This document shows, piece by piece, positions 7,901-60,303 of a stretch of 64,000 bases of DNA. Where the stretch lies: assembly GCF_900112575.1 (NCBI RefSeq), contig NZ_FOMH01000001.1, positions 186,001-250,000 on the forward strand. Direction: 5' to 3'. Made by a program: the position numbers and the translations under genes. Below the pieces are notes generated by a model, which ran no database searches, was not told where the DNA came from, and saw nothing but the letters and a program-made list of their open reading frames with translations. Source of the stretch: Flavobacterium phragmitis (lineage in GTDB: Bacteria > Bacteroidota > Bacteroidia > Flavobacteriales > Flavobacteriaceae). The first letter of the stretch is position 1. Each line of letters opens with the position of its first letter.

Positions 7901-10900
7901 TAGACCATTTAAAGTTATAACATCATTAACAATACTTGGTGTAACAACTGGTAATGTTGCTGGATTATATGAAACTGAAACTGTATAATTTCCAGTCGTA
8001 CTAAAATCAGAAACTGTAAAAGTTGCCGTACCATTATTGCTTGTTCCATTTAAGGTATTACAACTTACATTAGTAGATGAAGTTCGAACAATATTAATTG
8101 GAACAACTGGCTCTACTGTATAGTTACCCTCAATGTAACAACCATTTGCATCTGTAACTCTAAATAAGTAGTTTACATTTGGTGTTAAACCTGTGAATGT
8201 ATCTGAATTTAAATTATCTCTATATATAGGAGAAATGATCTCATACTTAGCATAAGGAGTATATCCTCCAGTCACATCAACTCTAATATCTGCCACATTT
8301 GTTGGACAAACAGGAGCAGTAGCAATTGCAAAATCTATTGTTGTTAACTCCTGATATGGATTAACATCAACATAATTACTAAAAGTACAGCCTTTACTAT
8401 CAATAACATAGTAGTAAATTCTTTGTACTGTTCCGTCATCAGTCACTAAAGTTGTATTATCATCATAATACTCTGTTCCACCGTCAAAATTATATTTGTA
8501 ATCTGTTGTACCTCCTGAAGGGATAATTCTCACAACAGCCTGTTGTACTTTATTACTAGCATTACAGCTATAAGGATCAACAGTTGCTATTGCATCTAAT
8601 GCTGCTGCTGGCTGATGTACATCATAAATGTGCGTTGCAGGACATCCTTTTCCTGAAGTCACTGTTATTTCATAACTTCCTTGAGGAACATTTGTAAATT
8701 TATTTCCTACTAATACTATTCCACCAGGAAGTGGCGTAGCTGTAGCAGATGCGATAGCATACGTATATGGAGTCTCCGTGTTTCCTGGAAGTAAATTAAC
8801 TGTAATACTTCCTGTCGCAGAATTATAACAAGCTGCATCTATAACATCAGCATCAAAAGTAACTGGGATTGGAGCTTTCAATTCAACAGGAACTGTTGCA
8901 TTACAGAAACCATCCGTAACAGTCACAGTGTAGTTTCCAAATGGTAAATTTGAAATTACATTATTTGTAACAACTGCTCCAGCAGCATCTATAGTATAAG
9001 TATAAGTACCTGTACCACCTGTAGTTGATAACGTAATACTACCAGCATTAACATCTGTACAAGTTGGATCTGCAGTAACTACAGCAGGCTGTAAATCAAG
9101 CGGTGCATTAATATTAATATCTTCAAAGTCAACACATCCGTTAGCGTCTTTAATATAAATTCTATGAGAACCCGAAGTAAGATTTGTTACAACATATGGT
9201 AATCCTCCTGTAAGAGGTGAATAAGCATTATCACTATCAACGCTTATAGAATATGCTCCAGTACCTGGATTTGTTTCTATAACATTTACTGAGAAATTAC
9301 CTTCAGCCACACATCGATCTACAATTTGTAAAGCAATTTCTGGACTAGAATCTACCGGAATTATTTGTGATCTTAAAACTTCACATCCTTTTGAATCTCT
9401 TACAACAATATTCCAATCTGTTCCTGAAGAAGGATCTAATTCTATAACATTATTAGTGCTTGTAAAAACAGTTGGCATTGCAGGTGAAAGTGCTACACCA
9501 TAATAATATGGAGCTGTTCCTCCAGTTGTTCTCATTGTTACAATAGCACCACTTCTACAATTTGCAGGTACCACACTAGTAATAATAGAATTAAGAGGTT
9601 GAGCTGGTTGATCAATTCTAAATGTATATGCAGTTGAACAAACCGTACCACCAACTTCAGTTACTTCCAGTATATAATTACCCGCTGGTAGATTATTAAT
9701 AGTCTCTGATACAGGTCCTCCTGCCGCTCCAGTTAAATCATCTTCAATTGGTGTTGTAAGTGGCAATTGAGTTAATTCATCTAATATTCTATAATGAATA
9801 GTCGTTACTGTAGAATCATAATCCTCAACAGTAAAGTTTAATATACCATTTGCACTTCCTGCACAAGTTGCATCAGTTTGTGATGTTGCTGTAATTTTAA
9901 TATTAGAAGGTGCTGGAGGCGTAATTACTTCTGCTATAGAAATACAGTTATTTTTGTCTTTTACTTGCAAATAGTAAGTTCTATTATGTGCTAAACCAAT
10001 AAATGTATAACTATTGCTTGCTAAAGGAGCCGTTTCAGCTTGACCAAAAATAGAATATCTATATGGTCCTTCTCCTCCCGTTGTAGTAACAGTAACATCC
10101 ACTCCTGTTGCACAGCTATTAGAATCTATTGTTGTTGTAATTTGTAAATATGGAGGTGTTTCAATTCGAAGTCTTGATGTTTCGAATTTACATCCATTAG
10201 CATCTACTATTGTAACATAATAGTAACCAAAATTTAGTCCTGAGAAAGTGTGAACAGCAGTTGGAGACACAGAAGTTTCAGTATATGTCTGTAACTGATT
10301 ACGGTTAGTATCATATAATGTATAAACAAACGGAGCTACTCCACCTGAAACCACACTTACTTTAAATGTACCTAATGTATTAAGGTCACATATAATTGGA
10401 GTTCCCTCAACAAGTCCGTCGATTGGAGCAGGTTCAGTTAAAACGGCAGTACTTGCATATTCACAACCTTTCGCATCTCTTACAATATAATTATAAGTTC
10501 CAGCTGTTAATCCACCAAAAATATATTTATCTCCAAAACCAGATCCATTAAAATTGTATTTAAATGGTGCTTCGCCTGTAAGTGCATTCAATTGTACTAC
10601 CCCATCTGTACCTGCATTACAAGTAGGATTTGTAGGCGTATAATCAGCAGTTACCACTGGTGTAGGATTAATAACAATTGTATTTGTTGCTTTAATACAA
10701 CCATTTGCATCTGTTATTTCAAACTCATATGTTCCATCAGTTGCTGTCGTATAAACAAAAGATCTAGTTGAAGTAAAAGGAATTGGTGTTCCTGTATATG
10801 CTGCAGGCAGCACTCTTACTCTATATCCAAAAGATGGATTTCCTCCTGTCACTTTAACTTCAATGCTTGCATCTGTTGGTGAAATTGCCGCACAAGTAAG

Positions 10901-13900
10901 ATCTTTTACTCTAACTGCCGTAGCAATCATTGCATCATTAACAGTAACTGTTTCTGTATTTGTACAGCCGTTTCCGTCTGTAATAGTTACCACATAAGTT
11001 CCCGCTCCTACTGTAAATCTATTTGCAGGACTTGGTGCAACTCCTGTATTGATAGTATAAGTATATGGTAAAACTCCATTTGCTCCCGTAGCTTCAATTA
11101 TAAATGAACTACCAGAAGCAGTACATTGATTTACTACATCTAGAGTAACTGTTGGTTGTGTATCTCCTGCAATAGTAACGTTTTCAGATGTAATACATCC
11201 ATTCGCATCTTTTGCATAGATTACCCAGTTTAAATCTGCACCTGAATTTGAATTGATTTCAAATACAGGATTTGGACCGTAAATTGGTGTAGCTGCAGTA
11301 TTGTCTGCATCTAAAATAGCATATTCATAAGTTCCTGTTCCTCCTGTAGCATGCACTGTTACAGTAGACGTTAACTTTTTACAATTAGAATTTACATTAG
11401 AATCTATAACTAAATCTAAAGCATCTGTAGGCTCCAAAATTTCAACCTGCTCAGTAGTCGTACAGTTTGTTGTTTCATCTACAAACACAACATTATATAT
11501 ACCAGCTGGGCGGTTTGCTAAAGTAAATACCGTTTGATTTCTTCCTGATACAGTTGCTTCACTGTTAACAGTATAGCTATATGTCGAAGTAAAGTTTGTA
11601 ACATTAAATCTAACATTTCCAGTACTTCCTCCTTTACAATAAACATCATTTAATTTAGTTGGCCTAACTGTAATCGCAACTACTGCTGGGATGTTTTTAG
11701 AAAATTCTGCATAACAGCCACTTGCATCTGTAACTCTGAAAACATAACTACCAGAAGTAAGTCCTGTAAATTCTCCATTTGCAACACCTGTAGTGTTTAT
11801 CGTTGGCCCTGAAACAATTGTATAAACCAATGTTCCTGTTCCAGCTGTTGCATTAATTTTAGCAGTACTAGTTCTGCTTGCAACAGGATCACAATAAATT
11901 ACAGTTGCACTAACCGAACTAATTTTAGGCGGATTAAGAGGTGAAATATTTATTGTTTTAACTGTTGTTGTACAGCCATTACCATCTTTCACAGAATATG
12001 TTACCGATTGAGGGCTTCCATTATCTGATACTTCGAATGTATTTCCAGTTTCATAAGAACCTCCGTTGAAACTATAAGTATAAGGAAGTACACCTCCTGT
12101 CACAGTAACCGTAACATCTTTAGATTCTTTTGCATTTGTAGTACTACAAGTAAATGGATCTACAGTTGCATCAGCTTCAAGTAAATCTGGTTGTGTAATC
12201 GTTACCTGAGCAGTACCCGTACAACCAATTCCATCCGTAACAGTAATATCGTAAACTCCAGCAATTAAACCTGTAGTCAAAGCAGTTGTAGAAACAGATG
12301 TTCCTCCTCTAGTTACGTTATAAGTATAAGGAGATTTACCAGCCGTTGTTGATACAGAAATAGTTCCTGTAGCAGCCCCGTTACATTTTACATCTGTTTT
12401 GCTTGTACTAATCGCAAAAGTAGTTGCATTTAAAGTAACTGGAATATCTGCTGTATAAGCATAACAAACTGGGTTTGCAGTATCATTAACTCTAAATTTA
12501 TAAGTTCCTGCTGCTGTTGCAGTATAAGGACTTGTAACTGCTGAATATGCACCTCCATTAAATGAAACCGCATATGCTCGAGTTCCAGTACCTCCTGTAG
12601 AAGATAAACTTATCGTTACATTCGGTGTACAAGTAGTATTTGCTACAATTGTAGGTGTAATTGTTAACTGCTGCGGCACTATATAAACAACACTAGCTTC
12701 ACAACCAAATTTATCTTTTAAAGTTAAATTATAAGTTTCAGGAGTCAAACTAAAAGTTGGTGATGATACAAAAGTAGTACCATCTTTACTGAACGTTGCT
12801 GGCCCTTGATAAGTACCTGTGATAGTCACGCTAACTGGTGATCCTGTATAACATTGCGTTGCAGGAGTATCAATTTGTGGAGCATCTTCTGTTGCGATAG
12901 AAACTGTTTTCTTAACTACACAACCATTTATATCTTTTACATATACATCAACAGTTGTTGTTAAAGATGCTGTATCTACTGTTAAAACAGTTCCATAAGG
13001 AGTTGTTGGAGCAGTAGAACCACTTGCTGCATAAGCATAAGTATATCCTGGAGCTCCACCTGTAATTCCTGTAATGCTTAATGTAGAAATTTTATTGTTA
13101 CAAGTAATTTTTGAAGCATTAACTGTAAAATCAATTTGAGTGGCTGCTTTAATTGTTACTGAAGCTGTATTTGATGTACATCCAGTCGCATTATCTCTAA
13201 CTACTAAAGTATAAGTACCAGTTGCTAAACCAGTAACTGTTATCGTATTATTATTTTTAGTTAGAGTTCCTGCAGTTGGAGAGAATGTATAAGTATAAGC
13301 ACCTGCACTGCTTGCTCCAATAATTTCGAACGTTGCAGTTCCGTTGTGTGCACTGTAACATAATTCATTTGTAAAGTCACCAGAAACTGAAATAGATGGC
13401 GCTGCATCAATAGTTTTAGAATCTGAAGCAACACAACCATTAGCATCTGTTACTCTAAAAGTATAGGTTCCCGGAACTAATCCTGTAAATGTACCTGAAG
13501 TAGTTTGAGTTGGTGAATTTGGACCAGACGTTACAGCATAAGTAAATGGTGCAACACCTCCTACAGCTGTTACTGTAAGACTAGTTGTTGTAGCGTTACA
13601 TGTAATACCAGCTGGTGTTGAAAAACTAAGTCCTGTAGGTGGATTGTATGCTGGAACTTTAATAGTTTCAGTATCTGTACAACCATTGCTGTCTCTTACA
13701 TTAAAAGTGATTGTTTGTTCACTGCTTGTATTTGTTACTGTTATTGTTCTAGTTCCGTTGTAAGTTGTATTTCCTGCTCCAAAACTATAGCTATATGTTC
13801 CTGTACCACCTACAGCAGAAACAGTAATTACTGTTGAAGTGCTACAAGTTGTATTAGGTGTAAAGCTAGCAGAAGCCACAACTTCTGTTGGGTTTGCTAA

Positions 13901-16900
13901 TGAAATATTGTAAACAGGAGAAAGACATCCTTTTCCATCTCTTACTTGATAAGTATAATCACCTGCACTTAAATTAGAAAGTGTAGCAGATGTACCAAAA
14001 GTAGCACTTCCGTTAAAACTATAAGTATAAGTCGCACCATTTCCTCCTTCTGGAGTTACTGTAATGCTTCCATCAGAACCATTGTGACATTTAGGATCTG
14101 TTCCTTTAGCCGTTGCCGTTGGAGCCAATTTTGTGCTTACCGTTACAGCTGGAGTAAGTGCTGTACAACCTTTTGAATCTGTTACTCTAAAGATATACGA
14201 TCCAGCAGCTGCAGCTGGGTAAACATTAGATCCTATCGATGCAAATGATGTTCCTCCATTAGTTGATACTTCATACGTATAACCTGGAGTCCCATCAGTA
14301 GCCGTAATCGTAATTTGGGCATCTGGTGAATTTGTACAATCTAAAGGTTTAGTAACTTCTGCTCTTACAAATAATTCTCTTGCAATAATAATATCTTTTA
14401 TTTCAACTGTACAACCATTTCCATCAGTAACAACAATAGTATGTGTTCCAGGACCAACATTTGTAAATGTATTATTATTTTGTCCATTACCGCCATTTAA
14501 ACTATAGCTATATGGTAATTTACCATCAGAAGCTGTTACAACCAAAGTTGCTCTATCTTTAGTATCATAACATAAATCTGAATTCGAAGCCAACACCGCT
14601 TTTGGTGGAACTGGCGCAATAACTGTAATTGGATCAGAAGCTGCAGACTCGCAACCTCCTGAATCCCTTACATAAACTCTATACGTTCCAACTGGAATGT
14701 TACTTCCGTCAGCTAATTTTGTAAATACATTATTAGCTTGATACGCAATAATAATATTAGAACCTTGACGTAATTCGTACTGGTAACCTGGTTTACCTCC
14801 ACCTGCAGTTGCTGTGATAACAGCACCGTCAATACAAGTAGGCTGTTTTGTTACAGTAGCCAATGAAGTAACAGGATTAGGAGCCGTAATATCTATATCA
14901 AATGACTCTGAACAAACTCCAGTCGCATCGCTTCTAATAATAATTTTGTAATTTCCAACAGCTAAATTATTAAGTTCAAGTGTAGCTGCAGTAGAAGGAG
15001 TCCATGATCCGTTATTTATTTTATATTCATATCCACTAGTAAAATTCTTTACTTCATAGACAATACTTCCTGTATTTCCTCCAGTACAAGTAACGTTGTT
15101 AATTTCTGGATCAGATACTTCAAAGCCTTTTCCGCTTTCGATTACAACAGGGAATTCTGTTTCACCGCCGCAAGATTCTGGAATCTGACGCACCCAGATA
15201 TCATCAATAAGAACGTCATTACCATTAAATTCATTACTGTAAGATCTAATAACAAAACTTAAATTATTGAAAGCTTTAGGATCTAACGATAATTCTCTAT
15301 ACTCCCATTGTTCTGTTTTTGGAACTACCCAAGGATTATTAGTATCAGTCGTAGCCACAATTGTTTCTGGACCTCCAACACCATTTAAGTTGTTTATTAA
15401 TTGGATAGTCAACTTTGGATCAGCATGTGAAGTTGATGTTTTTACGATTAAGTTTTCTGCCCATAATGAAATTATTACTGGCTGATTTGGAATTACATCA
15501 GAAATAGGTTTACTGTATAAAATACCACCAATACCTGCTGTACCACCAACGTTAACACATAAAAATCTTCCTAACGGATGTTGCGGAACCGTATGGTCTT
15601 TTGCAACAATCCAAGAATTATCGAATCTTGTTCTAATTGAACTTGCAACTGCATATTCCCCATCATTGATCCACTCATCTCTATTACATTTATAATCTGG
15701 AGCTAAGTGTGTAGATGTTTCGTCTTCAAAACAATATCCTGGGTTAATACCTGGTGTTGTGGTGTAAGATCCTCTTCCAAAATCTTCAATTAATAAGTTA
15801 CTGTAAGTTGGAACCTGAGTAGCTTTATATTTAACTTTAACCGTATAACTTCCTGATTTAACTCCAGTAAATACATTGTTTGTAATTGGTACGTTTGGTA
15901 CATCATCTAAATAATACTCATACGTATATGCAGTATCTCCACTTGTTTCAGGAGTTGTAACTTTTACTGTACTTGTTGCTAAACCATCACAACCGTATAC
16001 CGTATCAACCGTATTGATAATTGGGTTCGCTGGTATCGGATCTAATTTAACTTCATAAGGAATTGTAAAAGTACAACCGTTATCATCCTTTACAACTAAT
16101 TGATATGTTCCTGGTCTAGCTGCTATTTCTCTTGCTGTTCCAAAGTGAGCTCCATTATCAAAACTAAATTGGTATGGTGCTTTACCTCCTTCAACATTAT
16201 TAAATCTGATTATTCCACCATCTTTAATTCCATCTCCATCAGGATCTGTACAACCAGCTAATGCAGCAACACCAGCCGAAGCTGTCAATGCAGATGTTGG
16301 TCCTGTAATTATTACGTTTTCTGTATCGCTATAACAATGTTTTGTATCTCTAGAACCGTTACTTGTTGTATAAGTAATTGAATATCTAACTTTAACTTTA
16401 TAAGTACCTGGCTCTAAATTTAAAAAGTTAGGATTGGTCTGATAAGTTGCTCCATCATTAATACTATAAGCCATAGTATTCCCATTTGGAACTATGTTTT
16501 CAATTTTAATCGAAGAAGTACCATCATAACATAAACTGCTTGTAGCATTTACGGTATAAGTTGGTTTTGAAACTACAGGAACATTAATAGAAGTTTCTGC
16601 TTTACAACCTGCATCGTCAATAACAACAATATTATATTGCCCGCCTTCAGTTACAGCGAAAGGATTTTCACTTATATAACTACTAGCACCATTTACAAAA
16701 TAATGATAAGGAGCTCTTCCGTTTGATGCTGATAAAAAGATCTGACCAGGACTACAGGCCGTTAGTGGTTCTCTCAAAGTTGCCGTAACTCTTAATTGAT
16801 TATTTGGTGGATTTATCCTGAAATAAACTGATTGATCACAACTTGGCTGCGGGTTACCACTTCCTACTGGACTACTAGTAACCCTTACTCTGTAATTGAT

Positions 16901-19513
16901 ACCATTAGTACCATAACTCAAAGAAGCAAAGGTATATTCAAGATCTGAAACAGGCCCAGCACTTCTTTCTATTGTATTCCCATTATATAAATAAATATAA
17001 TACTGGGCATTATAATTTTCAACACCAATTTTAATACTTCCTGTATCTCCAACACAAACTGGCTGAGTCTGCTCATTAACCAAACTCATATTTCTGCGTC
17101 TTATTTGAATATTTTCAATCTTAAAAATACAAGGTATTGAAGTTACACCTTGTTGTTTAATAAAAACGGTATAGCTTCCTTCATTGTAAATTGGAAAAGT
17201 ATTACTGGTCTGCCATTCCCAATTCTGGATAGTGCCATTTGGATCTGTTTTAATAGCATATTGATAACCCGTTGGAACATCAAGTATTTTTATACTTCCG
17301 CTTTGCCCGCAAAGAATATCAACATGCTCTTCTCTAGGATTTAGTGGGTTTGTAAATACGTTAAAGTAAAATCTGCTGAAACAACCGCCTGCATAATTAA
17401 TAGTTAAACGGTATTGTCCTGCATCTTTTACGTTATAATCTGGTCCAGAAGCAACAGGCTGCCAGGTGCATGATTCATTTTCGTTTGCACATCTATCATT
17501 ACTGACTGCTGGACAACTCGCTGTATCTAATCTTTCCCAAACAATATTAGAACTATCTGTTATTCCTGTCTTAATTAATTTTGAAGCATTTGCCCCGCAT
17601 AAAAATATTTTAGGCAATTGTTTTCCATCATTAGGACAAGTAACGATTTCATCCGCAAAATCATTAACAGGATTATTGACTGTGGTTCCAAATCTTGTAA
17701 CAGTAAAGGCTTCATAGATAGATCTACATGGTGCAGGAGCAAGATTATAAACATAATAGGTTCCTGGTTCTTTAGCCACAAAAGTCTGACCTCTGCCTAT
17801 TTCTCTAGTTCTGGCTTCATCACTATACCATGTGTAGGTTGAATAACCGTCGGCCGCAACCAAGTTCACACTTGCAGTACACAAAGTGACATTTCTATTA
17901 TATCTACAGCCAGCAACTCCAACCAAGAAGTTTGTCGCTTTTGGAACTAAAATACATCCCGTGTTTGTATTCACACTCGGATCATCAGAAATCGTAAATG
18001 TAGTATTCTGAGTTCCTTTATAAGTGGCATAAGCAGAGTTATCAATACTATCAGAGCAAGCCTCATCAAGCATGGTACAATCAGGAATTACCTGAACTTT
18101 TAATTCAATTTTTGTTTCTGTTAGACGTCCTGCTTTTAGCAGATTAGCATCTGTAACTTCAAAAACAATATTACGTGTTGCCGGAGTCCAAGATTTTACT
18201 CGCACACCTGCTGGCAACACCATATCTCCTGGATAATTAAAAATTACATTTATTGGCAATTGATCACGAATCGTAAAATCTGTAGCATCATCATTACCTG
18301 TATTTCTAAAACCAATTATATAATTTAAATGCTGGCCTAATGTTACATTTTGTCCACCAATATTAGTTCCCTTATCATTTTCTACAATTTTAGTTAAAAC
18401 TATTTTTGGCTCAATAATTTCAACATTAAATGCATTAAAGAATAGACCATAACCATCACCACGGGTCTTTAACTTTAATGTTGCCTTGGTATCATTATTT
18501 TTAATAATGACATTATTAACCGTATTCCCTAATTTAATAATACCGGAATCATAACCAAGAGTATTTGAACTATTAGGTCTTCGATCATTTACACCATTAA
18601 AAGCGCCATCAACATTGTTAATTGTACTATTAAAGAAATTGTTTACTGGTCTTTCATTTGTAAAAAGATCTGTACCGTTTAAAGAGTAACTATCTCCAGT
18701 AGTATTATTATCCCCTTCTATAGCAGCAAAAGCGAGCTTTACTTTAACCTCTCCATTTGGTATCGTTTTAAATCCAGAAATTTCATAATTAACATCAGGA
18801 CTATTTGCTTTAATAAAACGGAAACCATCAAACGATGTAATATACTTAGCACTTAATTTAGGGTCTTCATAAACCACAAATAAAGACCATCCTGCAGCAA
18901 ATCCACCATCAATATTACCATTGGTAGCTATAACATTTGCGAGTGTATAACTCCCCTCAGGATTTGCTAAACCCTGTATTAAATTTGTTACATTACTATA
19001 GTAGGCATAAATGACCTGAGATCCATTTGCAGTATTTGGAGTATTTTCATAATAATCATAGATTTTCTCACCTTGTATTTTTTCGTAAGTATTGGTATTG
19101 GCAAGTTTGAACTCTACAGATCCCAGCTTTGTACGATCCACAACTCTATCATTAACATCTTTTATACTATAAATACCTGTCCAATAAAGACCTGCATAAG
19201 CAATCTTGTAACATTCTTTACTTGCCGCTGGTATTGTTAATGTTGCAGAGCTTGAACTAAATCGTCCTCCACCCGGATCAACATTAATATATCCCATATT
19301 AAAATTATTGTTGTCCTGTAATCCTGTGTAGTTATTGTTTGGACGTTCATTGTTTCGTACATCTCTATTCAAGATATTATTTCCAATCAAAAGCATGTCA
19401 CCCTTTAAACTTTTGTCATAACGGGGAGTAAAATCCTTTTGGGCGAAAACAATAAAAGTTTGTATAAAAAATAATACAACTAAAACTGATTTTAAAGTAG
19501 TAGGTTTCTTCAT
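1985..19513 (-). CDS. sprB: SprB, giant repetitive gliding-motility cell-surface adhesin
   Basis: In F. johnsoniae SprB is the mobile surface adhesin driven along the cell by the gliding motor and exported through the T9SS. This copy has 5842 residues. It starts with a signal peptide (residues 1-24, ending VFAQ), then a unique N-terminal region to about 370 and a DUF11-like domain at about 370-520 (LGQHLNYIIGFRNTGND). Roughly fifty SprB-type modules of 75-100 residues follow, each with a Cys near its start, a GG..PY.Y..NGG core and a V.D.NGC end. A lectin-like, jelly-roll-looking domain interrupts the modules at about 1240-1450 (IEDFGRGSYTT to DDIWVRQIPESC). The C-terminal about 90 residues (LPNYFTPNGTGTN, FDVYDRYGRVV, TGDYWYVLKLND) are the type B gliding/T9SS sorting domain. 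From about residue 1620 to 4560 the modules form a seven-module super-repeat. sprD lies 98 bp upstream and sprF 43 bp downstream. Confidence 0.96.
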   Translation of the reverse strand: MKKPTTLKSVLVVLFFIQTFIVFAQKDFTPRYDKSLKGDMLLIGNNILNRDVRNNERPNNNYTGLQDNNNFNMGYINVDPGGGRFSSSSATLTIPAASKECYKIAYAGLYWTGIYSIKDVNDRVVDRTKLGSVEFKLANTNTYEKIQGEKIYDYYENTPNTANGSQVIYAYYSNVTNLIQGLANPEGSYTLANVIATNGNIDGGFAAGWSLFVVYEDPKLSAKYITSFDGFRFIKANSPDVNYEISGFKTIPNGEVKVKLAFAAIEGDNNTTGDSYSLNGTDLFTNERPVNNFFNSTINNVDGAFNGVNDRRPNSSNTLGYDSGIIKLGNTVNNVIIKNNDTKATLKLKTRGDGYGLFFNAFNVEIIEPKIVLTKIVENDKGTNIGGQNVTLGQHLNYIIGFRNTGNDDATDFTIRDQLPINVIFNYPGDMVLPAGVRVKSWTPATRNIVFEVTDANLLKAGRLTETKIELKVQVIPDCTMLDEACSDSIDNSAYATYKGTQNTTFTISDDPSVNTNTGCILVPKATNFLVGVAGCRYNRNVTLCTASVNLVAADGYSTYTWYSDEARTREIGRGQTFVAKEPGTYYVYNLAPAPCRSIYEAFTVTRFGTTVNNPVNDFADEIVTCPNDGKQLPKIFLCGANASKLIKTGITDSSNIVWERLDTASCPAVSNDRCANENESCTWQPVASGPDYNVKDAGQYRLTINYAGGCFSRFYFNVFTNPLNPREEHVDILCGQSGSIKILDVPTGYQYAIKTDPNGTIQNWEWQTSNTFPIYNEGSYTVFIKQQGVTSIPCIFKIENIQIRRRNMSLVNEQTQPVCVGDTGSIKIGVENYNAQYYIYLYNGNTIERSAGPVSDLEYTFASLSYGTNGINYRVRVTSSPVGSGNPQPSCDQSVYFRINPPNNQLRVTATLREPLTACSPGQIFLSASNGRAPYHYFVNGASSYISENPFAVTEGGQYNIVVIDDAGCKAETSINVPVVSKPTYTVNATSSLCYDGTSSIKIENIVPNGNTMAYSINDGATYQTNPNFLNLEPGTYKVKVRYSITYTTSNGSRDTKHCYSDTENVIITGPTSALTASAGVAALAGCTDPDGDGIKDGGIIRFNNVEGGKAPYQFSFDNGAHFGTAREIAARPGTYQLVVKDDNGCTFTIPYEVKLDPIPANPIINTVDTVYGCDGLATSTVKVTTPETSGDTAYTYEYYLDDVPNVPITNNVFTGVKSGSYTVKVKYKATQVPTYSNLLIEDFGRGSYTTTPGINPGYCFEDETSTHLAPDYKCNRDEWINDGEYAVASSIRTRFDNSWIVAKDHTVPQHPLGRFLCVNVGGTAGIGGILYSKPISDVIPNQPVIISLWAENLIVKTSTSHADPKLTIQLINNLNGVGGPETIVATTDTNNPWVVPKTEQWEYRELSLDPKAFNNLSFVIRSYSNEFNGNDVLIDDIWVRQIPESCGGETEFPVVIESGKGFEVSDPEINNVTCTGGNTGSIVYEVKNFTSGYEYKINNGSWTPSTAATLELNNLAVGNYKIIIRSDATGVCSESFDIDITAPNPVTSLATVTKQPTCIDGAVITATAGGGKPGYQYELRQGSNIIIAYQANNVFTKLADGSNIPVGTYRVYVRDSGGCESAASDPITVIAPVPPKAVLASNSDLCYDTKDRATLVVTASDGKLPYSYSLNGGNGQNNNTFTNVGPGTHTIVVTDGNGCTVEIKDIIIARELFVRAEVTKPLDCTNSPDAQITITATDGTPGYTYEVSTNGGTSFASIGSNVYPAAAAGSYIFRVTDSKGCTALTPAVTVSTKLAPTATAKGTDPKCHNGSDGSITVTPEGGNGATYTYSFNGSATFGTSATLSNLSAGDYTYQVRDGKGCLSPVYNISLANPTEVVASASFTPNTTCSTSTVITVSAVGGTGTYSYSFGAGNTTYNGTRTITVTNTSSEQTITFNVRDSNGCTDTETIKVPAYNPPTGLSFSTPAGITCNATTTSLTVTAVGGVAPFTYAVTSGPNSPTQTTSGTFTGLVPGTYTFRVTDANGCVASDSKTIDAAPSISVSGDFTNELCYSAHNGTATFEIIGASSAGAYTYTFSPTAGTLTKNNNTITVTGLATGTYTLVVRDNATGCTSNTASVTIKAATQIDFTVNASKITCNNKISTLSITGITGGAPGYTYAYAASGSTAPTTPYGTVLTVDTASLTTTVDVYVKDINGCVVKKTVSIATEDAPQIDTPATQCYTGSPVSVTITGTYQGPATFSKDGTTFVSSPTFSLTPETYNLTLKDKFGCEASVVYIVPQQLTITPTIVANTTCTPNVTISLSSTGGTGTRAYAVSFNGGAYSAVTSPYTATAAGTYKFRVNDTANPVCYAYTADIPVTLNATTFAISTSKTDVKCNGAATGTISVSTTAGKSPYTYNVTRGGTSVSTTALTTGLIAGVYDITVTDGIGCTGTAQVTITQPDLLEADATVDPFTCSTTNAKESKDVTVTVTGGVLPYTYSFNGGSYETGNTFEVSDNGSPQSVTYSVKDGNGCTTTVKTINISPLNPPKISSVSATVIYCDPVASRTSTAKINATAGTGTLVYTIVSGPTINTTGVANGEFTGLTSGSYVFRVTDASGCYAEFSKNIPAVVAITVRPTKLNDVYCKGGSTGNVRFNVTNFTSTYSYTVNSEATVSGRNQTVFTLANRPAGIYNVVFVDETTNCTTTEQVEILEPTDALDLVIDSNVNSNCKKLTSTVTVHATGGTGTYEYAILDADNTAATPIYGPNPVFEINSNSGADLNWVIYAKDANGCITSENVTIAGDTQPTVTLDVVNQCTASGSSFIIEATGANGVLPYTYTINTGVAPSPANRFTVGAGTYVVTITDGNGCTNTETVTVNDAMIATAVRVKDLTCAAISPTDASIEVKVTGGNPSFGYRVRVLPAAYTGTPIPFTSTRSFVYTTATDGTYEFEITDANGCIKATNTIVINPTPVVTADYTPTNPTCNAGTDGVVQLNALTGEAPFKYNFNGSGFGDKYIFGGLTAGTYNYIVRDAKGCEYASTAVLTEPAPIDGLVEGTPIICDLNTLGTFKVSVVSGGVAPFVYTLYDTNRNQLQTYTETSVSPTAVHTFSGLNFGYYYVTIVDANGCKFETSRLRIETPPYLQITTTIDSNSCATGVDVTVTTTGGEGPYRYSIFGQAETAPLASNSYTFIGLAHNRTYYLQVKDKNNCISIAEVITPPAPSNIKITATSQTDATCAGSANGILNFTVEDYDSTVTTIHYRILDELTQLPLTTPIEDDLTGAAGGPVSETINNLPAGNYILEVTEVGGTVCSTAYTFRIDQPAQPLNSIITSVVPANCRSGAIVTMRTTGGTAPYYYGVALSPAMPTVFTSTNNVIELDPSSGTDWNIVVRDSKGCEVLRSQIIPVDSSPEIALQIVDRCVAEGNFSVNVIETNPGTGAYSISVDSDNAYSPLTGGLPYVVTNLTSGSHRIYIKDANGCVDFEDININAPLDLQPAVVTADPTCTDVNAGSITLSTTGGTGTYTYTIDAAGAVVTNNVISNLPFGNYTVTVTDGFCNATVPVELKAPIPVTFDADVIDAACYNSATGSITVNLLPGNTETPYTYAIASATATPLPGGIVLVGNKFTNVPQGSYEITVTSGKGCPATHIYDVHQPAAALDAIATVDPYSCNASNKVQQAVVRIIPSGGTTDYKYNFDGGTEYYDDNTTLVTDDGTVQRIYYYVIDSKGCTFSNYVDVNPYQELTTIDFAIATAPVCPTNVADIRVDVTGGYTPYAKYEIISPIYRDNLNSDTFTGLTPNVNYLFRVTDANGCYIEGNYTVEPVVPINIVRTSSTNVSCNTLNGTSNNGTATFTVSDFSTTGNYTVSVSYNPATLPVVTPSIVNDVITLNGLVEGTYTVTVEDNTTHCSKSAAVVITMPAPIVFTATGSNVYCTEDNSTITISNITGGTSAYSYAAVRAGQPAPTTFAPATDLLVVDTDLTNLSWDVYVQDSNLCISEPVRVDITHDAAPVLNMPAQQCFRGANLTVDLDVLSTTFNGVKSFTIDGLATSSTATFTGPGQYKIVLTDENGCTDEQDYIIEEQLIVGASIQQDLYCNPSTALIDVTIKGGVGTYTYQMYRNGVPEGLPGTATGDFTETVTQIGDYYFVITDSNVPCTAQTDPVTVTTPTNPTGLEAHIDVTCETLSDGSLTITPSDGVGPYTFVLTGVANTTGDTTGIYTGLAAGSYSVVITDSKGCTSAPVNVTIDEPVELTAPHAITPNAGCYTTTEIVVSPVGGTQPYYYNFNGKGYVEGANKISVANDGSIANVTYTVKDANGCETPVVTVPIVPLNKPSDLDFTPTAITCVTGNSSDVTVRATNGVGQLTFEIIEFNGAAPAVAYTPQVVADNTIAAVFNDLPFGDYLFRVTDSNTCSYDELLTIKDVIRINADGQSIADMSCNTTNDGKVTFTVSGFAGTYTYSITKDGAPFTGPTVTSDASIELTNLAFGVYEITAVDNITGCDIKASAEVKQPTIVEVDLIENLDANCNRGAIVEVLGKGGNPGYTYSFVDASIPGPGTFDPETRRELDPTITAWHIYARDINGCTSLPLLVNIGTSPLPTGFTAAATSQCPDGDGNYEIVVTPGSGMAPFTYSIGGGFQSELTFTVNVPKAYDLVVRDRFGCTTTFPVALTILQPVVLDVVKDIQPTCADGDGQVTATATGGTGNFSYTLDGVTTLTTTPAIFTGIAHGSHTIVVTDLGTPSNCTDTVTFELEKATEVTGFKAVATPVTCNGGSDGTIIASMDPTNPGVNDNPKYMYSINGGTPQESPVFTGLTQGTYTVSVVSGRNCPASATVVVTEPALIVVPNPAVVQYGCAAGNNSNAATITVTGVTGGNEKYPNYEFIRNGVVMYKGERNVFTERDLLGGNYVVNVYDENNCMGSVVVTVPVNPYINLDKVVIRVTDEITCTNNEDILVEVTTTPGVNPVLDFVITDAAGNAVAGNPNNQTGIFTDLPIGNYLVTVTNPATGCSIVTPHYVNSANSFEIKAVTTNREICYGTTNGSVELTFIDNQPTPTNEAGIFDYIITGSNGYSLATTRSANAGPVVISNLAAGVYDVTATLVGKPYCTVTTMFTISQPFNELVVTTTKDDITCVTDNNDGVIYATATGGWDNEYEYQLVKGSTIVVDYSEQFTFSGLTEGVYTVNVKDSKGCIASSTETLVIPAPITATATVNLTMLACYGDKTGVITVNPPTGGQGSNYLYTLNYLSENPVISSGPVVSPVFSGLAAGRYSVTVTDGFTCQGTTNEILIEEPTLVTPMLKQSRAQTCQTLTELTLTVEGGTPPYTYSADGTNYSAPFASTVSFEVPVGSYKYFVRDANGCNSFVSNSVEIDPLEPLRLEVNKESAVVKCTGQATGAIIVEAFGGLGSYTYTLTGSETRPAQDNGIFENLAIGTYRITVNSVDCAITSEEIVITEPSRALQAEFFPTDVTCFGQNNGRLEIVASGGTGIIKYAVSPNMSQFDTKVVYDKLAPGDYQAIAQDENGCYVLYDFTIHEPRPVIVTEVPNSMIPEVCDGDKDGAFSIEVRGGTAPYSVSLDVPTGPFTEGALTQTVFDFTNLSGGAHTVYVKDAKGCPVDFEVNMPEPVILNPIAEVTYDCVNNAQANRVVVTVDASNNPTDVDYSLDNNGTYQPSNIFIDVPAGDHFIVARHTNGCEVPTAIFKVDPVAPLSLIDITNQSNEINTISVKASGGFAPYEYSFNGEPFSSSNTYRIYKTDVYKVIVRDKNGCEATIDVPGTFYDFCLPNYFTPNGTGTNTTIGPDCGALAYKDLTFDVYDRYGRVVGKYRVGGKWDGRYNGDELPTGDYWYVLKLNDPKDNREFVGHFTLYR
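5840..14650 (-). repeat. Higher-order seven-module super-repeat inside sprB (five periods of about 1.76 kb)
   Basis: The module ending in a W/V-x-I/V-Y/V-x-(K/R/Q)-D-x-x-x-C motif, followed by a linker and a module starting with QC, RC or LC, recurs near 14.65, 12.92, 11.20, 9.39, 7.60 and 5.84 kb. Seven Cys-marked modules lie between each pair. Position-specific traits recur within each cycle; for example the fourth module often carries VxDNG or VTDDG before its terminal V.D..GC. The periods were counted by eye from the translation. Confidence 0.7.
15160..15795 (-). other. Non-repeat, jelly-roll-like domain inserted in SprB
   Basis: Residues about 1240-1450 of SprB break the module series. 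The block opens with LIEDFGRG, holds several Cys and aromatic residues, and continues through IISLWAENLIV, LTIQLINNLNG and LSFVIRSYSN to VLIDDIWVRQIPESC. The strand pattern resembles carbohydrate-binding or MAM-like beta-sandwiches found in bacterial adhesins. Ligand binding is inferred, not shown. Confidence 0.5.
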
Positions 19514-37930: not shown

Positions 37931-37946
37931 CGTTTCACGTGGAAAA
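37931..37946. other. parS-like ParB-binding site (outlier)
   Basis: CGTTTCACGTGGAAAA carries the palindromic CACGTG core with TTTC/GGAA flanks. Intergenic, upstream of the AraC regulator; near but not perfect match to the parS consensus. Confidence 0.5.
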
Positions 37947-40071: not shown

Positions 40072-40087
40072 TGTTTCACGTGGGACG
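40072..40087. other. parS-like ParB-binding site (outlier)
   Basis: TGTTTCACGTGGGACG, with left half identical to the parS consensus and a degenerate right half. Intergenic, between the secreted protein gene and the helicase stop. Confidence 0.5.
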
Positions 40088-44729: not shown

Positions 44730-44745
44730 CGTTTCACGTGGAACA
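44730..44745. other. parS-like ParB-binding site (outlier)
   Basis: CGTTTCACGTGGAACA. Intergenic, between the GNAT gene and the mnmG stop; core CACGTG with T(T)C/GAAC flanks. Confidence 0.6.
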
Positions 44746-44836: not shown

Positions 44837-46708
44837 TTATCTTCCCATATAAATCAAAAGCACGGAAATATCACTTGGTGATACTCCGCTAATTCTCGAA
44901 GCTTGAGAAATGGTTACAGGACGAATCTTGCTTAATTTCTGTTTTGCTTCAATAGACATTGACTTGATTTTGTTATAATCAAAATTGTCTGGAATTTTTA
45001 CTTCTTCCAAACGATTCAACTTATCTGCATTATTTCTTTCTTTTTCGATATAACCAGAATATTTCACCTGAATTACGGCTTGCTCAACAATTTCTTCATC
45101 CAAATCATTCTCTTCGATGTAAGCCGAAACTTTTTCAAATTTCAACATATCTTCTAATTCAATCTGTGGACGAGAGAAAATCTTAAACATTTTATCTCCT
45201 TGTGAAATCGGTGCAGATTCTTTCGCTTCCAAAATCGGGTTTGTTTCTGCGATCGTAACACTTGTTTCTTTGAAGAATTGAACCATCTTTTCAGACTCGT
45301 TCAATTTCTTTTCCATTCTTCTTAAACGCTCTTCAGAAGCTAAACCAATTTCATATGACATTGGAGTCAATCTGAAATCGGCATTATCTTGACGCAACAA
45401 TGTTCTATATTCTGCTCTTGATGTAAACATACGATATGGTTCTTCCGTTCCTTTCGTAATTAAGTCATCAATTAAAACTCCGATGTAAGCTTCATCACGT
45501 TTTAAAATCAACGGATCTTTTTCGTGCACTTTCAAGTGTGCATTTATTCCAGCCATCAAACCTTGAGAAGCTGCTTCTTCATATCCTGTTGTTCCGTTAA
45601 TCTGTCCAGCGAAATACAAACCTTCCACTAACTTTGTTTCCAAAGTATGTTTCAATTGCGTTGGAGGAAAGAAATCATATTCGATTGCATAACCAGGTCT
45701 AAAGAATTTTACATTTTCAAAACCTGCTACCGAACGAAGCGCTTTGAATTGAATATCTTCAGGAAGTGAAGTTGAAAATCCGTTTACGTAAACTTCACAT
45801 GTATTCCATCCTTCAGGCTCCACAAATAATTGATGGCGTTCTTTGTCTGCAAAACGATTAATCTTATCTTCAATTGATGGACAGTATCTTGGTCCTAAAC
45901 TTTTGATTCTTCCATTGAACATTGGAGAGCGATCAAAACCTTCTCTCAAAATATCGTGAACATCCAAAGACGTATACGTCATATAACAAGAACGCTGATG
46001 CGTTAACGGAGAAGTCACATCTGAATAAGAAAACTTATCTGGCTTTGCATCTCCCTTTTCTTCGTTCATTTTAGAATAATCTAAAGAACGTCCATCCACT
46101 CGAGGTGGCGTTCCTGTTTTCATTCTTCCAGCTTCAAAACCTGCTTTAATCAAATCTTCGGTAATTCCGGTCGCAGCACTTTCTCCTGCTCTACCACCTC
46201 CGAATTGTTTTTCTCCAATATGAATCAAACCATTCAAAAAAGTACCATTTGTCAAAACCACAGATTTGGAACGAATCTCAACTCCAAGTGAAGTTCTAAT
46301 TCCTTTTATCTTTCCGCCTTCAATTATCAACCCTTTTACCATCTCTTGATAAAAATCAAGATTTGGAGTTGCTTCCAACATCATTCTCCATTCTTCTGCA
46401 AAACGCATTCTGTCACTTTGAACTCTCGGCGACCACATTGCCGGTCCTTTCGATTTATTCAACATCTTGAACTGAATTGCAGTTCGATCAGAAACAATTC
46501 CTGAATATCCTCCAAGTGCATCAATCTCACGAACAATTTGTCCTTTTGCAATTCCACCCATCGCAGGATTACAAGACATCTGCGCAATGTTTTGCAAACT
46601 CATTGTAACCAATAAAGTTTTCGATCCCAAATTTGCAGCCGCAGCTGCAGCTTCAGAACCAGCATGGCCTGCACCAACCACAATAACATCGTATTCTTCT
46701 AAAAACAT
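44837..46708 (-). CDS. mnmG: MnmG (GidA), tRNA uridine-34 carboxymethylaminomethyl synthesis enzyme
   Basis: FAD-dependent tRNA modification enzyme that acts with MnmE at wobble uridines. Length is 623 residues. The FAD-binding Rossmann motif GAGHAGSEAAAAAANLGSKT lies at residues 12-31. It continues with SCNPAMGGIAKGQIVREID and KTGTPPRVDGRSLDYSK, and has family-conserved NGTTGYEEAASQGLMAG and EEPYRMFTSRAEYR. The C-terminal helical domain (ISQASRISGVSPSDISVLLIYM) is complete. gidA often lies close to the replication origin in bacteria, which fits the parS-like sites packed just upstream. No other gene overlaps it. Confidence 0.97.
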   Translation of the reverse strand: MFLEEYDVIVVGAGHAGSEAAAAAANLGSKTLLVTMSLQNIAQMSCNPAMGGIAKGQIVREIDALGGYSGIVSDRTAIQFKMLNKSKGPAMWSPRVQSDRMRFAEEWRMMLEATPNLDFYQEMVKGLIIEGGKIKGIRTSLGVEIRSKSVVLTNGTFLNGLIHIGEKQFGGGRAGESAATGITEDLIKAGFEAGRMKTGTPPRVDGRSLDYSKMNEEKGDAKPDKFSYSDVTSPLTHQRSCYMTYTSLDVHDILREGFDRSPMFNGRIKSLGPRYCPSIEDKINRFADKERHQLFVEPEGWNTCEVYVNGFSTSLPEDIQFKALRSVAGFENVKFFRPGYAIEYDFFPPTQLKHTLETKLVEGLYFAGQINGTTGYEEAASQGLMAGINAHLKVHEKDPLILKRDEAYIGVLIDDLITKGTEEPYRMFTSRAEYRTLLRQDNADFRLTPMSYEIGLASEERLRRMEKKLNESEKMVQFFKETSVTIAETNPILEAKESAPISQGDKMFKIFSRPQIELEDMLKFEKVSAYIEENDLDEEIVEQAVIQVKYSGYIEKERNNADKLNRLEEVKIPDNFDYNKIKSMSIEAKQKLSKIRPVTISQASRISGVSPSDISVLLIYMGR

Positions 46709-46770
46709 TTTGTTTTATTATTCTCCAAAAACCGCTAACGCGGTTTCTAGAATTACTTTTATATTTTTCT

Positions 46771-46786
46771 TGTTCCACGTGGAACG
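46771..46786. other. parS-like site 1 of the cluster
   Basis: TGTTCCACGTGGAACG; near-perfect palindrome, about 63 bp upstream of the mnmG start. Confidence 0.75.
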
Positions 46787-46824
46787 TATAATTCTTTTTA
46801 TTTCAGGTTTCACATTTCAAGTTC

Positions 46825-46908
46825 AAACTAGAATCTTCAAACTAGAATCTTCAAACTAGAATCTTCAAACTAGAATCTTCAAACTAGAATCTTCAAACTA
46901 GAAGCTTC
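46825..46908. repeat. 14-bp tandem repeat, six copies
   Basis: AAACTAGAATCTTC repeated six times in register; the last copy has GCTTC in place of TCTTC. Lies between the first and second parS-like sites. Confidence 0.9.
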
Positions 46909-46913
46909 GAAAA

Positions 46914-46929
46914 TGTTTCACGTGAAACA
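46914..46929. other. parS-like site 2 of the cluster (perfect consensus)
   Basis: TGTTTCACGTGAAACA, a 16-bp perfect palindrome identical to the consensus parS of Bacillus-type chromosomal ParB. Confidence 0.88.
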
Positions 46930-46935
46930 TTTCAA

Positions 46936-47007
46936 AAACTTCCATTCTAAACTTCCATTCTAAACTTCCATTCTAAACTTCCATTCTAAACTTCCATTCT
47001 AAACTTC
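46936..47007. repeat. 13-bp tandem repeat, five copies plus a partial one
   Basis: AAACTTCCATTCT repeated five times (46936-47000), then AAACTTC of a sixth. Lies between the second and third parS-like sites. Confidence 0.9.
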
Positions 47008-47026
47008 AAAGACCATTTCAAAATCA

Positions 47027-47042
47027 TGTTCCACGTGAAACA
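47027..47042. other. parS-like site 3 of the cluster
   Basis: TGTTCCACGTGAAACA; one position from the exact consensus. Confidence 0.85.
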
Positions 47043-47079
47043 TCCTATTTCTTTTCTTTTAAATTCAAACTTAAAAAAT

Positions 47080-47095
47080 CGTTCCACGTGGAACG
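47080..47095. other. parS-like site 4 of the cluster
   Basis: CGTTCCACGTGGAACG; a perfect palindrome of the GTTCCACGTGGAAC variant. Confidence 0.75.
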
Positions 47096-47127
47096 ATTTA
47101 ATTTATTATTCAAAATTTTTATTCTAA

Positions 47128-47143
47128 CGTTCCACGTGGAACG
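47128..47143. other. parS-like site 5 of the cluster
   Basis: CGTTCCACGTGGAACG, identical to site 4 and 48 bp further on. Confidence 0.75.
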
Positions 47144-47172
47144 TTGTTATTTTTACCTATAATCTCTAAATA

Positions 47173-47188
47173 TGTTTCACGTGGAACG
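47173..47188. other. parS-like site 6 of the cluster
   Basis: TGTTTCACGTGGAACG; mixed TTTC/GGAAC flanks. Confidence 0.75.
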
Positions 47189-47212
47189 TTGTAACAAATC
47201 AAAACTTAAAAA

Positions 47213-47228
47213 CGTTTCACGTGGAACA
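47213..47228. other. parS-like site 7 of the cluster
   Basis: CGTTTCACGTGGAACA; 40 bp after site 6. Confidence 0.75.
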
Positions 47229-47252
47229 TCTCTATAATAAAAAGAAATTTAA

Positions 47253-47672
47253 TTACTGTTCCACGTGAAACATCTTCATCTTCTCCTCTTCCTTAGCTCT
47301 CATTAATTGAGCATCTTCATCAGTCTTATCTTTATATCCACAGTAATGTAGTATACCATGAGACAGCACTCTTTTAAGTTCTTCGGCAAATGAAACATTG
47401 AAGTCTTTTGCATTGTCTGCAACACGTTCTACAGAAACAAAAATATCGCCATTTAACTCGTTACCAACTGTATAATCAAAACTGATAATATCAGTAAGAG
47501 TATCATGATCTAGATATTCAACGTTGATTTTATGAAGATATTCATCATCACAAAATATATAATTGATCTCTCCTTCATTCTTGTTTTCAGAAACAATTAC
47601 AGCACTAAGCCAGTCACTAAAAGCCTGCTCGTCTCCTAGAGTAAAATCTGTTTCGTAATTAAAATTTATCAT
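47253..47672 (-). CDS. ybeY: YbeY, rRNA maturation endoribonuclease
   Basis: Metal-dependent RNase involved in 16S rRNA maturation and ribosome quality control. Length is 139 residues. The core LSHGILHYCGYKDKTDEDAQ carries the family's H-x3-H pair; the third metal-binding His expected six residues after the second is replaced here by Asp (GYKD instead of GYDH). The upstream NVEYLDHDTLTDIISFDY is typical. The last six codons, Met-Phe-His-Val-Glu-Gln, are encoded by a parS-like palindrome, so the gene's 3' end doubles as a ParB site. The start overlaps the stop of the DUF4175 gene by four bases (ATGA), indicating translational coupling. Confidence 0.92.
   Translation of the reverse strand: MINFNYETDFTLGDEQAFSDWLSAVIVSENKNEGEINYIFCDDEYLHKINVEYLDHDTLTDIISFDYTVGNELNGDIFVSVERVADNAKDFNVSFAEELKRVLSHGILHYCGYKDKTDEDAQLMRAKEEEKMKMFHVEQ
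47257..47272. other. parS-like site 8 of the cluster, inside the ybeY 3' end
   Basis: TGTTCCACGTGAAACA lies within the last codons of ybeY, read on the minus strand as ATG TTT CAC GTG GAA CA. Confidence 0.85.
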
Positions 47673-55465: not shown

Positions 55466-56679
55466 GATTATTAGATTTAAATTAAAAATGATCAGATTTG
55501 AAATTTTAAAACTAAAGCTTCACACAAATTCAATGTTATGGAATTTTGTACATTATGATACAATTTGAAAAATACCTTTTACGCGAAATATTATCAAAGT
55601 TACACCACAATAAAAATGAGAACATAAAATTGTCTTTTCAGGAAAACAATTTTGAAAATCTACTGCTATAAAAATTACGAGTTTTTAAAAACAGTAAAAT
55701 CCAGTTTAGCTTCCGTCACGGCAAATTTTAATTTTTCTTAAATCATCTCTGATTTCTGGTATTGAGTTAAAAATAGCAACTTTATAAACAATTGTATGTT
55801 AACAAGCCGTTAAACTGACAAAAATAACAGCTAAAAGTTAAATAAAAGCTCTAAATAAATAATTATTCAAAAAATGAGTTATCTATCAACTAACTTTAAA
55901 AAACGTCTTAAAATCGATTTATGACGGTTAAAATCAATATATAAAAACTATTATTTTTATATTTTACATCATTTTTATAAATAATAACTAAAAACTAAAT
56001 TTTTAGTAAAAATATAATAAAAATCTATAAGTTAAAAATTAAAATCAAAGACTCAAAAAATAACAAAAAACTATAGTTTTAAATTCTATAGTCAGTTTTA
56101 TAAATAATAACTATAATCTAAATTTTAAATAATAATAATAAAAAAAAATTATAATTATAAAAATTGAAATTAAAAATTTAAAAAAATAAGAAAAAACTTT
56201 AATTTAAATTTTTTGAGAAGAAAACTATAACCAAAAAAGAGAAAAATTGAAATAAAGAATTTTAAGGAATGAAAAACAAAAAAAGGTCTTCTCTATTCGA
56301 CTGTTTTTTATATTAGCTCACAGATAATTTATGAAAGTCAATTATAATTTATAAAATAAATCAAAATTATAAAAATAATAAATTTTATAAATAATAAATA
56401 CATTTAATTAAATAAATAAATTACATCAATTAAAACTATATTATAAAATTTAATGGGAAAAATTAGGAGTTAAAAAAGACCAAAATTAAAATAAAGCTTA
56501 TAGATAAACGAAAATTTAAAAAATGAATTCCTTATCCAACATTTTTTTATTTTCCATTAAAATTAATTTATGAAAGCCACTTTTAATATATAAAAATTAT
56601 AAAATTACTATTTATAATAGTTATTATATATAATAAAAAAAAGCGCTTATAAAAGCGCTTTTCATAAATTAAGTTGATA
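55466..56679. other. 1.2-kb non-coding, extremely AT-rich tract
   Basis: No gene found. From about 55930 to 56640 the sequence is almost all A and T, with recurring words such as TTTATAAATAATAA (55977, 56098 and 56389) and TTTATGAAAG (56328 and 56568). Two DnaA-box-like words occur, TTATCCAAC (56532-56540) and TTATCTATC (55879-55887), but they are imperfect and not clustered. A replication origin is conceivable given the parS cluster 8.7 kb away; the evidence is weak. Confidence 0.55.
56639..56662 (-). terminator. glnS terminator
   Basis: AAAAGCGCTT (56639-56648) pairs with AAGCGCTTTT (56653-56662); a T run follows on the minus strand. Confidence 0.85.
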
Positions 56680-59923: not shown

Positions 59924-59994
59924 GGCGTCGTGGCCGAGCGGCTAGGCTGGGCTCTGCAAAAGCTCCTACTCCGGTTCGAATCCGGACGATGACT
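59924..59994 (+). tRNA. tRNA-Cys (anticodon GCA)
   Basis: 71-nt cloverleaf. The acceptor stem pairs GGCGTCG (59924-59930) with CGATGAC (59987-59993) with one G-T wobble and one G-A mismatch at the second pair. The D-stem is GCC/GGC. The anticodon loop CTGCAAA has GCA at 59956-59958. The variable loop is short and the T-arm is TCCGG TTCGAAT CCGGA. The discriminator is T (59994), as expected for tRNA-Cys. CCA is not encoded. Three further copies of its T-arm and 3' end lie in tandem downstream. Confidence 0.92.
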
Positions 59995-60303
59995 CAAAAA
60001 ACTCTAAAGTAATTTAGAGGTTTTTTTATGTATAATTTTTAGAAAAAATTAATTAAAATATATGTTCGAATCCTGACGATGACTCGAAAATCTCTAAAGT
60101 AATTTATAGGTTTTTTTATGTATAATTTTTAGAAAAAATTAATTAAAATATATGTTCGAATCCGGACGATGACTCGAAAATCTCTAAAGTAATTTAGAGG
60201 TTTTTTTATGTATAATTTTTAGAAAATTTAATTAAAAATATATTGTTTGAATCTGGAGGATTCCTCAAAACCTCTAAAGCAATTTAGAGTTTTTTTTATG
60301 GTA
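59974..60303 (+). repeat. 90-bp tandem array of the tRNA-Cys 3' end plus terminator
   Basis: GTTCGAATCC recurs at exactly 90-bp intervals (59974, 60064 and 60154) and decayed as GTTTGAATCT at 60245. Each unit holds the T-loop and acceptor 3' strand (…GACGATGACTC), a CTCTAAA/TTTAGAG-type hairpin and T run, and an AT-rich spacer. The third copy keeps the tRNA 3' 20 nt exactly, the fourth is decayed. The rest of the 438-bp gap to lysE holds hairpins only. Confidence 0.92.
60002..60027 (+). terminator. tRNA-Cys terminator
   Basis: CTCTAAA (60002-60008) pairs with TTTAGAG (60013-60019), then a T run. Copies recur in each 90-bp unit. Confidence 0.85.

Follow-up and report, generated by a model that had tools for sequence, protein, structure and literature searches.

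A dense parS array around mnmG as a probable ParB-loading centromere in Flavobacterium phragmitis

The mnmG–ybeY locus and its palindromes

The window analyzed here is a stretch of 64,000 nucleotides from Flavobacterium phragmitis, in which two minus-strand genes, ybeY and mnmG, flank a short interval packed with palindromes (Table 1). Eight of these form a cluster of 502 bp (46771–47272), with start-to-start spacings of 143, 113, 53, 48, 45, 40, and 44 bp, and each fits GTTYCACGTGRAAC without mismatch. Two tandem arrays, whose unit and copy number vary between close relatives, lie among the sites. The initial annotation of this DNA had reported the eight palindromes, the identity of one of them with the parS consensus, and the two short arrays, and all of these are present where it placed them. 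Its account requires amendment in two respects. It set all eight sites between mnmG and ybeY, which holds for the cluster but not for its last member, located inside the 3′ coding end of ybeY; and its list was incomplete, as a ninth exact site lies beyond mnmG. The locus therefore holds the 16-bp parS palindrome of ParABS systems nine times as GTTYCACGTGRAAC, once in the perfect form TGTTTCACGTGAAACA.

These nine sites are the only exact copies in the 6.04-Mb genome. The genome-wide search for the 16-mer that the annotation had proposed recovered all of them on a single contig (C13) within 2.5 kb, against a chance expectation from base composition of 0.043 per genome, and a reversed control pattern gave no matches in the same search. 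Sites with a single mismatch number four in the 400 kb surrounding the cluster, compared with 0.13 expected, and none were found in 4 × 400 kb sampled from four relatives. Two of these imperfect sites, listed in Table 1, are possibly weak or decayed outliers.

Table 1. Features of the parS locus and its surroundings (positions within the window)
Feature	Position	Strand	Basis
parS-like site with a single mismatch, GTTTCACGTGGAAA core	37931–37946	.	motif search
parS-like site with a single mismatch, GTTTCACGTGGGAC core	40072–40087	.	motif search
parS site 9, about 95 bp past the mnmG 3′ end	44730–44745	.	motif match
mnmG (gidA), parS sites on either side	44837–46708	-	TIGR00136
parS site 1, TGTTCCACGTGGAACG	46771–46786	.	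motif match
Tandem array, 14 bp × 6.2	46822–46908	.	repeat analysis
parS site 2, perfect consensus TGTTTCACGTGAAACA, between both tandem arrays	46914–46929	.	motif match
Tandem array, 13 bp × 5.5	46936–47007	.	repeat analysis
parS site 3	47027–47042	.	motif match
parS site 4, CGTTCCACGTGGAACG	47080–47095	.	motif match
parS site 5, CGTTCCACGTGGAACG	47128–47143	.	motif match
parS site 6	47173–47188	.	motif match
parS site 7	47213–47228	.	motif match
ybeY, 3′ end bearing parS site 8	47253–47672	-	TIGR00043
parS site 8, within the last ybeY codons, encoding MFHVEQ-stop on the minus strand	47257–47272	.	motif match
AT-rich gap (GC 0.175) adjoining glnS, within the skew-switch interval	55466–56679	.	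composition

The site embedded in ybeY recurs across the genus. In 21 of 21 genus genomes, the parS nearest ybeY fills the same final codons of the gene (...FHV[E/K]..stop) in the same register, and His and Val are written CAC and GTG in every case, compared with genome-wide usage of 30% and 11%, respectively; variation is confined to the two degenerate positions of the motif (Phe as TTT in 15 genomes and TTC in six; Glu in 19 and Lys in two) and to bases outside the core. Among the matches listed in a broader scan for dense parS loci, 15 of the 20 loci bearing ybeY have a parS inside the end of the gene, 14 of them in the usual frame and one (L286) in another, and in the remaining five the first parS follows the stop codon. 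The fixed codons, together with the frame change in L286, suggest that selection has acted on the DNA sequence and not on the protein tail. At the opposite end of mnmG, at least one site lies past the stop codon in 20 of 21 genus genomes, the remaining contig (G052) stopping there. The housekeeping genes around the array are conserved, and their order is shared by the relatives examined.

Palindromes that separate two co-directional genes could also act as operators or as RNA hairpins (terminators) regulating ybeY and mnmG, with no centromere involved, and three of the palindromes do score as terminator-like (four strand-specific hits vs. 0.2 expected). We consider such a role highly unlikely, however, as sites also occur inside ybeY and past mnmG, and the Y/R position is asymmetric in five of the nine exact sites, which a hairpin stem would not favor. 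Further, the motif is the ParB consensus, a matching ParB is encoded, and the 61 genus genomes searched show the motif linked to mnmG in every case with listed positions.

Two other features of the window were observed. A single minus-strand ORF of 5842 codons (1985–19513), adjoining another of 1542 codons, probably encodes a giant surface protein. The second feature is a tRNA-Cys gene; inspection by eye showed it to precede about three imperfect copies, in tandem, of about 120 bp that start with its 3′ end (59924–60290). These would resemble leftovers of repeated integration or slippage at a tRNA.

ParB, ParA, and the search for SMC

In ParABS systems, parS serves as the loading site for ParB, which forms a CTP clamp there and spreads, with ParA driving its movement. 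The initial annotation held that its reading would fail if the genome lacked a chromosomal parB; one ParB over the TIGR00180 cut-off is in fact encoded, on another contig (C10), with the parA ORF directly upstream and adjacent, as in a parA–parB operon. The protein contains ParB_N, HTH_ParB, and ParB_C (dimerization) domains (Pfam) as well as a GERR motif, and the best-matching proteins of solved structure are chromosomal ParBs. Across the genus, all 61 genomes encode at least one ParB over the cut-off, and eight have a second, weaker match below it. In a gap-free count from GKKRST to MGHGR, following the numbering of PMC7383237 (excerpt), residues R, N, G, and R map to R173, N178, G201, and R204 of Caulobacter ParB, with K rather than S at position 172, Y at 179, and K at 184. 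Positions 179 and 184 are called variable in that source; R173 and G201, both present here as parS-type specificity residues, are conserved among ParB proteins, whereas Noc has other residues there (PMC7383237, excerpt). Nucleoid occlusion (Noc/NBS) was considered as a function and is not supported: the protein has R and G, not Q173 and R201, and scores 242 bits against TIGR04285, below the cut-off of 315.

Dense, iterated centromeres are typical of plasmids, and the array might by that likeness belong to an integrated plasmid or a conjugative element and serve as its partition site; the tRNA-Cys 13 kb away, with repeated 3′ fragments of the kind that integrases leave, would fit such a history. 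This explanation is nonetheless extremely unlikely. No parAB of a mobile element lies beside the sites, the parAB operon being on another contig; conserved housekeeping genes flank the array and keep their order in relatives; and the basic pair of sites at mnmG is found across the family.

The palindrome and the type of ParB are the same as in Bacillus subtilis and Caulobacter, but there ParB loads Smc-ScpAB, whereas none of 21 Flavobacteriaceae genomes has an SMC over the TIGR02168 cut-off. All 21 have weak matches only, and 10 of 14 control genomes score over the cut-off; among SMC-type complexes, the search covered Smc alone, through TIGR02168. Two Bacteroidetes gut species have also been described as lacking recognizable condensins (PMC10197239, excerpt). 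Given that no Smc exceeds the cut-off in the 21 genomes tested, the loading of Smc-ScpAB is unlikely to be the job of the array here. If SMC is indeed absent, the array would serve ParA-driven movement of the origin or an unknown folding machine.

Position relative to the replication origin

Placing the origin by GC skew had been suggested in the initial annotation. Within the 400 kb examined on the F. phragmitis contig, the cumulative GC3 skew reaches its minimum about 17 kb away from the cluster. A close relative (G042) has its minimum over 400 kb at the same gene, which is RNase R-like, again at a distance of about 17 kb. Whole chromosomes were sampled in four complete relatives (20 × 20 kb each). 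In three of these (G042, G051, and G058), the skew origin, taken as the switch from negative to positive, lies at 4.0%, 2.0%, and 0.2% of the genome from parS, respectively, and the opposite switch, taken as the terminus, at 48–50%. The fourth (G022, 2.96 Mb) has almost no GC3-skew contrast (+0.035 vs. −0.004) and hence no usable skew; a nominal fit to this virtually skewless chromosome sets the switch 24% of the genome away from parS and 6% away from parB. The near absence of third-position skew in G022, unlike its relatives, may reflect a recent rearrangement or a different mutation pattern.

Both dnaA and parB are distant from the array. In eight relatives (seven assembled in one contig and one in two), dnaA lies 0.89–1.27 Mb and parB 0.82–1.26 Mb from parS; the F. 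phragmitis assembly consists of 24 contigs, with parS on C13, dnaA on C21, and parB on C10, and these distances come from the relatives only. As dnaA is the usual marker, and six of eight complete genus genomes start there (with dnaA at position 25 or 127), the origin might really lie at dnaA, leaving the centromere in one chromosome arm about 1 Mb away. We find this very unlikely, since the GC3 skew of G042, G051, and G058 keeps the same sign across dnaA and switches at or near parS. Moreover, parS clusters and skew, backed by read coverage, have been used elsewhere to locate origins, and these do not always coincide with dnaA (PMC10197239, excerpt). The proximity of parB to parS that PMC7022226 (excerpt) would lead one to look for is not seen either, the two being 15–33% of the genome apart in eight relatives with complete or near-complete assemblies. 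Contrary to the textbook arrangement, parAB thus lies outside the origin domain in these relatives; nearness of parAB is a habit of a family and no requirement for function.

An exact oriC was looked for, but neither it nor a cluster of DnaA boxes was found near the skew switch. The AT-rich gap adjoining glnS is a speculative candidate for oriC or an unwinding element: of the 20 relatives in which glnS was within range, 19 (all but G029) have their lowest-GC 800 bp in or abutting this gap, at the end of glnS. DnaA-like boxes in the gap are unclustered, the densest 600-bp windows holding three boxes and one of the four such windows lying in glnS, and the words best conserved in the gap belong to the hairpin next to the end of glnS. 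By eye, the gap also contains three recurring, similar stretches around ATTTATGA.

The exact sites occur at this locus only, their layout is conserved, they lie near the skew minimum, and the genome encodes a single ParB with parS-type residues. On these observations, the locus is very probably the ParB-loading centromere of the chromosome, a parS array close to the replication origin, and the proposal of the initial annotation that it is the main partition site gains support. By analogy with characterized ParABS systems, we infer binding, clamp loading, spreading, and ParA-driven movement here. ParB from the distant parAB operon would recognize each palindrome of 14–16 bp, be loaded there as a CTP-dependent clamp, and slide outward over mnmG and the neighboring genes; the resulting ParB–parS complexes would then be pulled apart by ParA once the origin has been copied. 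The basic unit would be one site on each side of mnmG, and Flavobacterium would have multiplied the sites on the ybeY side, including one within the codons of ybeY itself.

Distribution and copy number of parS sites

The motif is present in 61 of 61 genus genomes, at 1–10 sites each (the reversed control matched once, in G016), and in 344 of 346 Flavobacteriaceae genomes (187 genera), two having no exact site and six having one match each to the reversed control. Outside the genus, exactly two sites are found in 300 of 342 Flavobacteriaceae genomes, and in a sample of the phylum 139 of 148 genomes carry the motif, mostly twice, with nine lacking an exact site. The position of the sites relative to mnmG was checked in 50 genomes, which were those among the matches listed and not a random draw. 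Sites lie on both sides of the gene in 38 of the 39 Flavobacteriaceae genomes from outside the genus, mostly 9–90 bp away, the exception having a single site on the 5′ side; other families of the class are represented by 11 genomes, of which nine have sites 5′ of mnmG only and two (G437 and G462) have parS and mnmG on different contigs. The comparison of sides therefore covers 48 of the 50, and the two left out count against linkage to mnmG at the level of the class. Copy numbers, genome sizes, and site and mnmG coordinates were transcribed by hand from result tables. Taken across family, class, and phylum, this distribution indicates that the linkage of parS to mnmG is old, that two-sided bracketing is a trait of the Flavobacteriaceae, and that the array expanded in Flavobacterium.

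Dense parS clusters and parS-marked origins away from dnaA are already known. The initial annotation had presented dense packing as unusual, which stands for the layout described here but not for density as such, given that dense clusters exist in other phyla. In most bacteria, parS clusters are spread over 5–40 kb (PMC8357415, excerpt), compared with nine sites in 2.5 kb here. M. xanthus, however, packs 22 near-identical parS sites into about 3 kb close to its origin, and their consensus, TGTTCCACGTGGAACG, is site 1 of the present cluster (PMC3899335, excerpt). That cluster differs in lying about 4 kb from parA and, with parAB, about 35 kb from oriC (PMC3899335, excerpt), whereas the Flavobacterium array is smaller, brackets mnmG, and has parAB 0.82–1.26 Mb away in the eight relatives. 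Bacteroidetes gut species examined by Hi-C are similar in that a parS cluster marks the skew origin, dnaA may lie elsewhere, and condensins are unrecognized; the available excerpt of that work (PMC10197239) describes no Flavobacteriaceae, mnmG bracketing, ybeY-embedded site, or expansion series. A pattern scan for dense triples (at least three sites within about 120 bp) recovered at least 117 stretches from many phyla (L197–L313), and among the matches listed the fetched DNA includes mnmG for 50 of the 117 loci. These triples, collected by pattern alone, are alike in spacing. Two Bacilli MAG contigs (L269 and L275) contain long, regular parS arrays with several adjacent triple matches, denser than the Flavobacterium cluster. 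Another MAG contig, labelled Limnohabitans (L234, 3231–5659), has the order ybeY–parS–mnmG and an MnmG 82% identical to that of Flavobacterium, and is probably a misbinned Bacteroidota contig. The combination of mnmG bracketing, a ybeY-embedded site, distant parAB and dnaA, no SMC found, and a series from two to ten sites was not met in the literature, as far as the excerpts go. A literature search for parS sites and ParB in Flavobacterium found no papers, which is no proof of absence, and one for ParB and chromosome segregation in Flavobacterium johnsoniae found two.

Within the genus, site number increases with genome size (rho 0.75 over 61 genomes; 0.79 over the 45 genomes at least 95% complete). 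The contrast-corrected correlation is r 0.54 (p 0.001; 32 contrasts, 33 genomes), calculated on a single-gene MnmG tree that includes 12 partial sequences, for genomes that were not randomly drawn. Outside the genus, the relationship is weak (rho 0.13, p 0.014, 342 genomes), and 16 of 20 genomes of at least 5 Mb keep two sites; the idea that parS number follows genome size as a general rule was accordingly dropped.

It is quite possible, if somewhat less than an even prospect, that the centromere is real and the surplus Flavobacterium sites are neutral duplicates, the trend with size arising because larger genomes delete less DNA. The large genomes outside the genus that retain two sites, and the weak correlation there, are consistent with this explanation, as are the tandem arrays that change freely between the sites among close relatives and the reported sufficiency of a single parS in P. 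aeruginosa (PMC4368675). Yet the sites remain exact while the intervening DNA diverges, and copy number in the genus still tracks genome size after contrast correction, which argues against neutrality. We also offer, as a tentative and rather unlikely proposal, that an SMC-free, minimal two-site Flavobacteriaceae centromere clips mnmG, with the origin uncoupled from dnaA and parAB, and that the Flavobacterium array grew with chromosome size, as a larger chromosome would need more ParB loading for its origin to be pulled when ParA works alone.

By this account, Flavobacterium chromosomes would have their centromere, and judged by skew also their origin, at mnmG rather than at dnaA. Because parS, parAB, and dnaA are mutually distant and no SMC exceeds the cut-off, ParA-driven segregation could be studied in these bacteria apart from SMC-driven folding. 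The natural series of two to ten sites, one of them fixed in the codons of ybeY, makes the purpose of copy number directly testable. If the array is indeed matched to chromosome size, parS copy number would be a tunable part of an SMC-free segregation machine.
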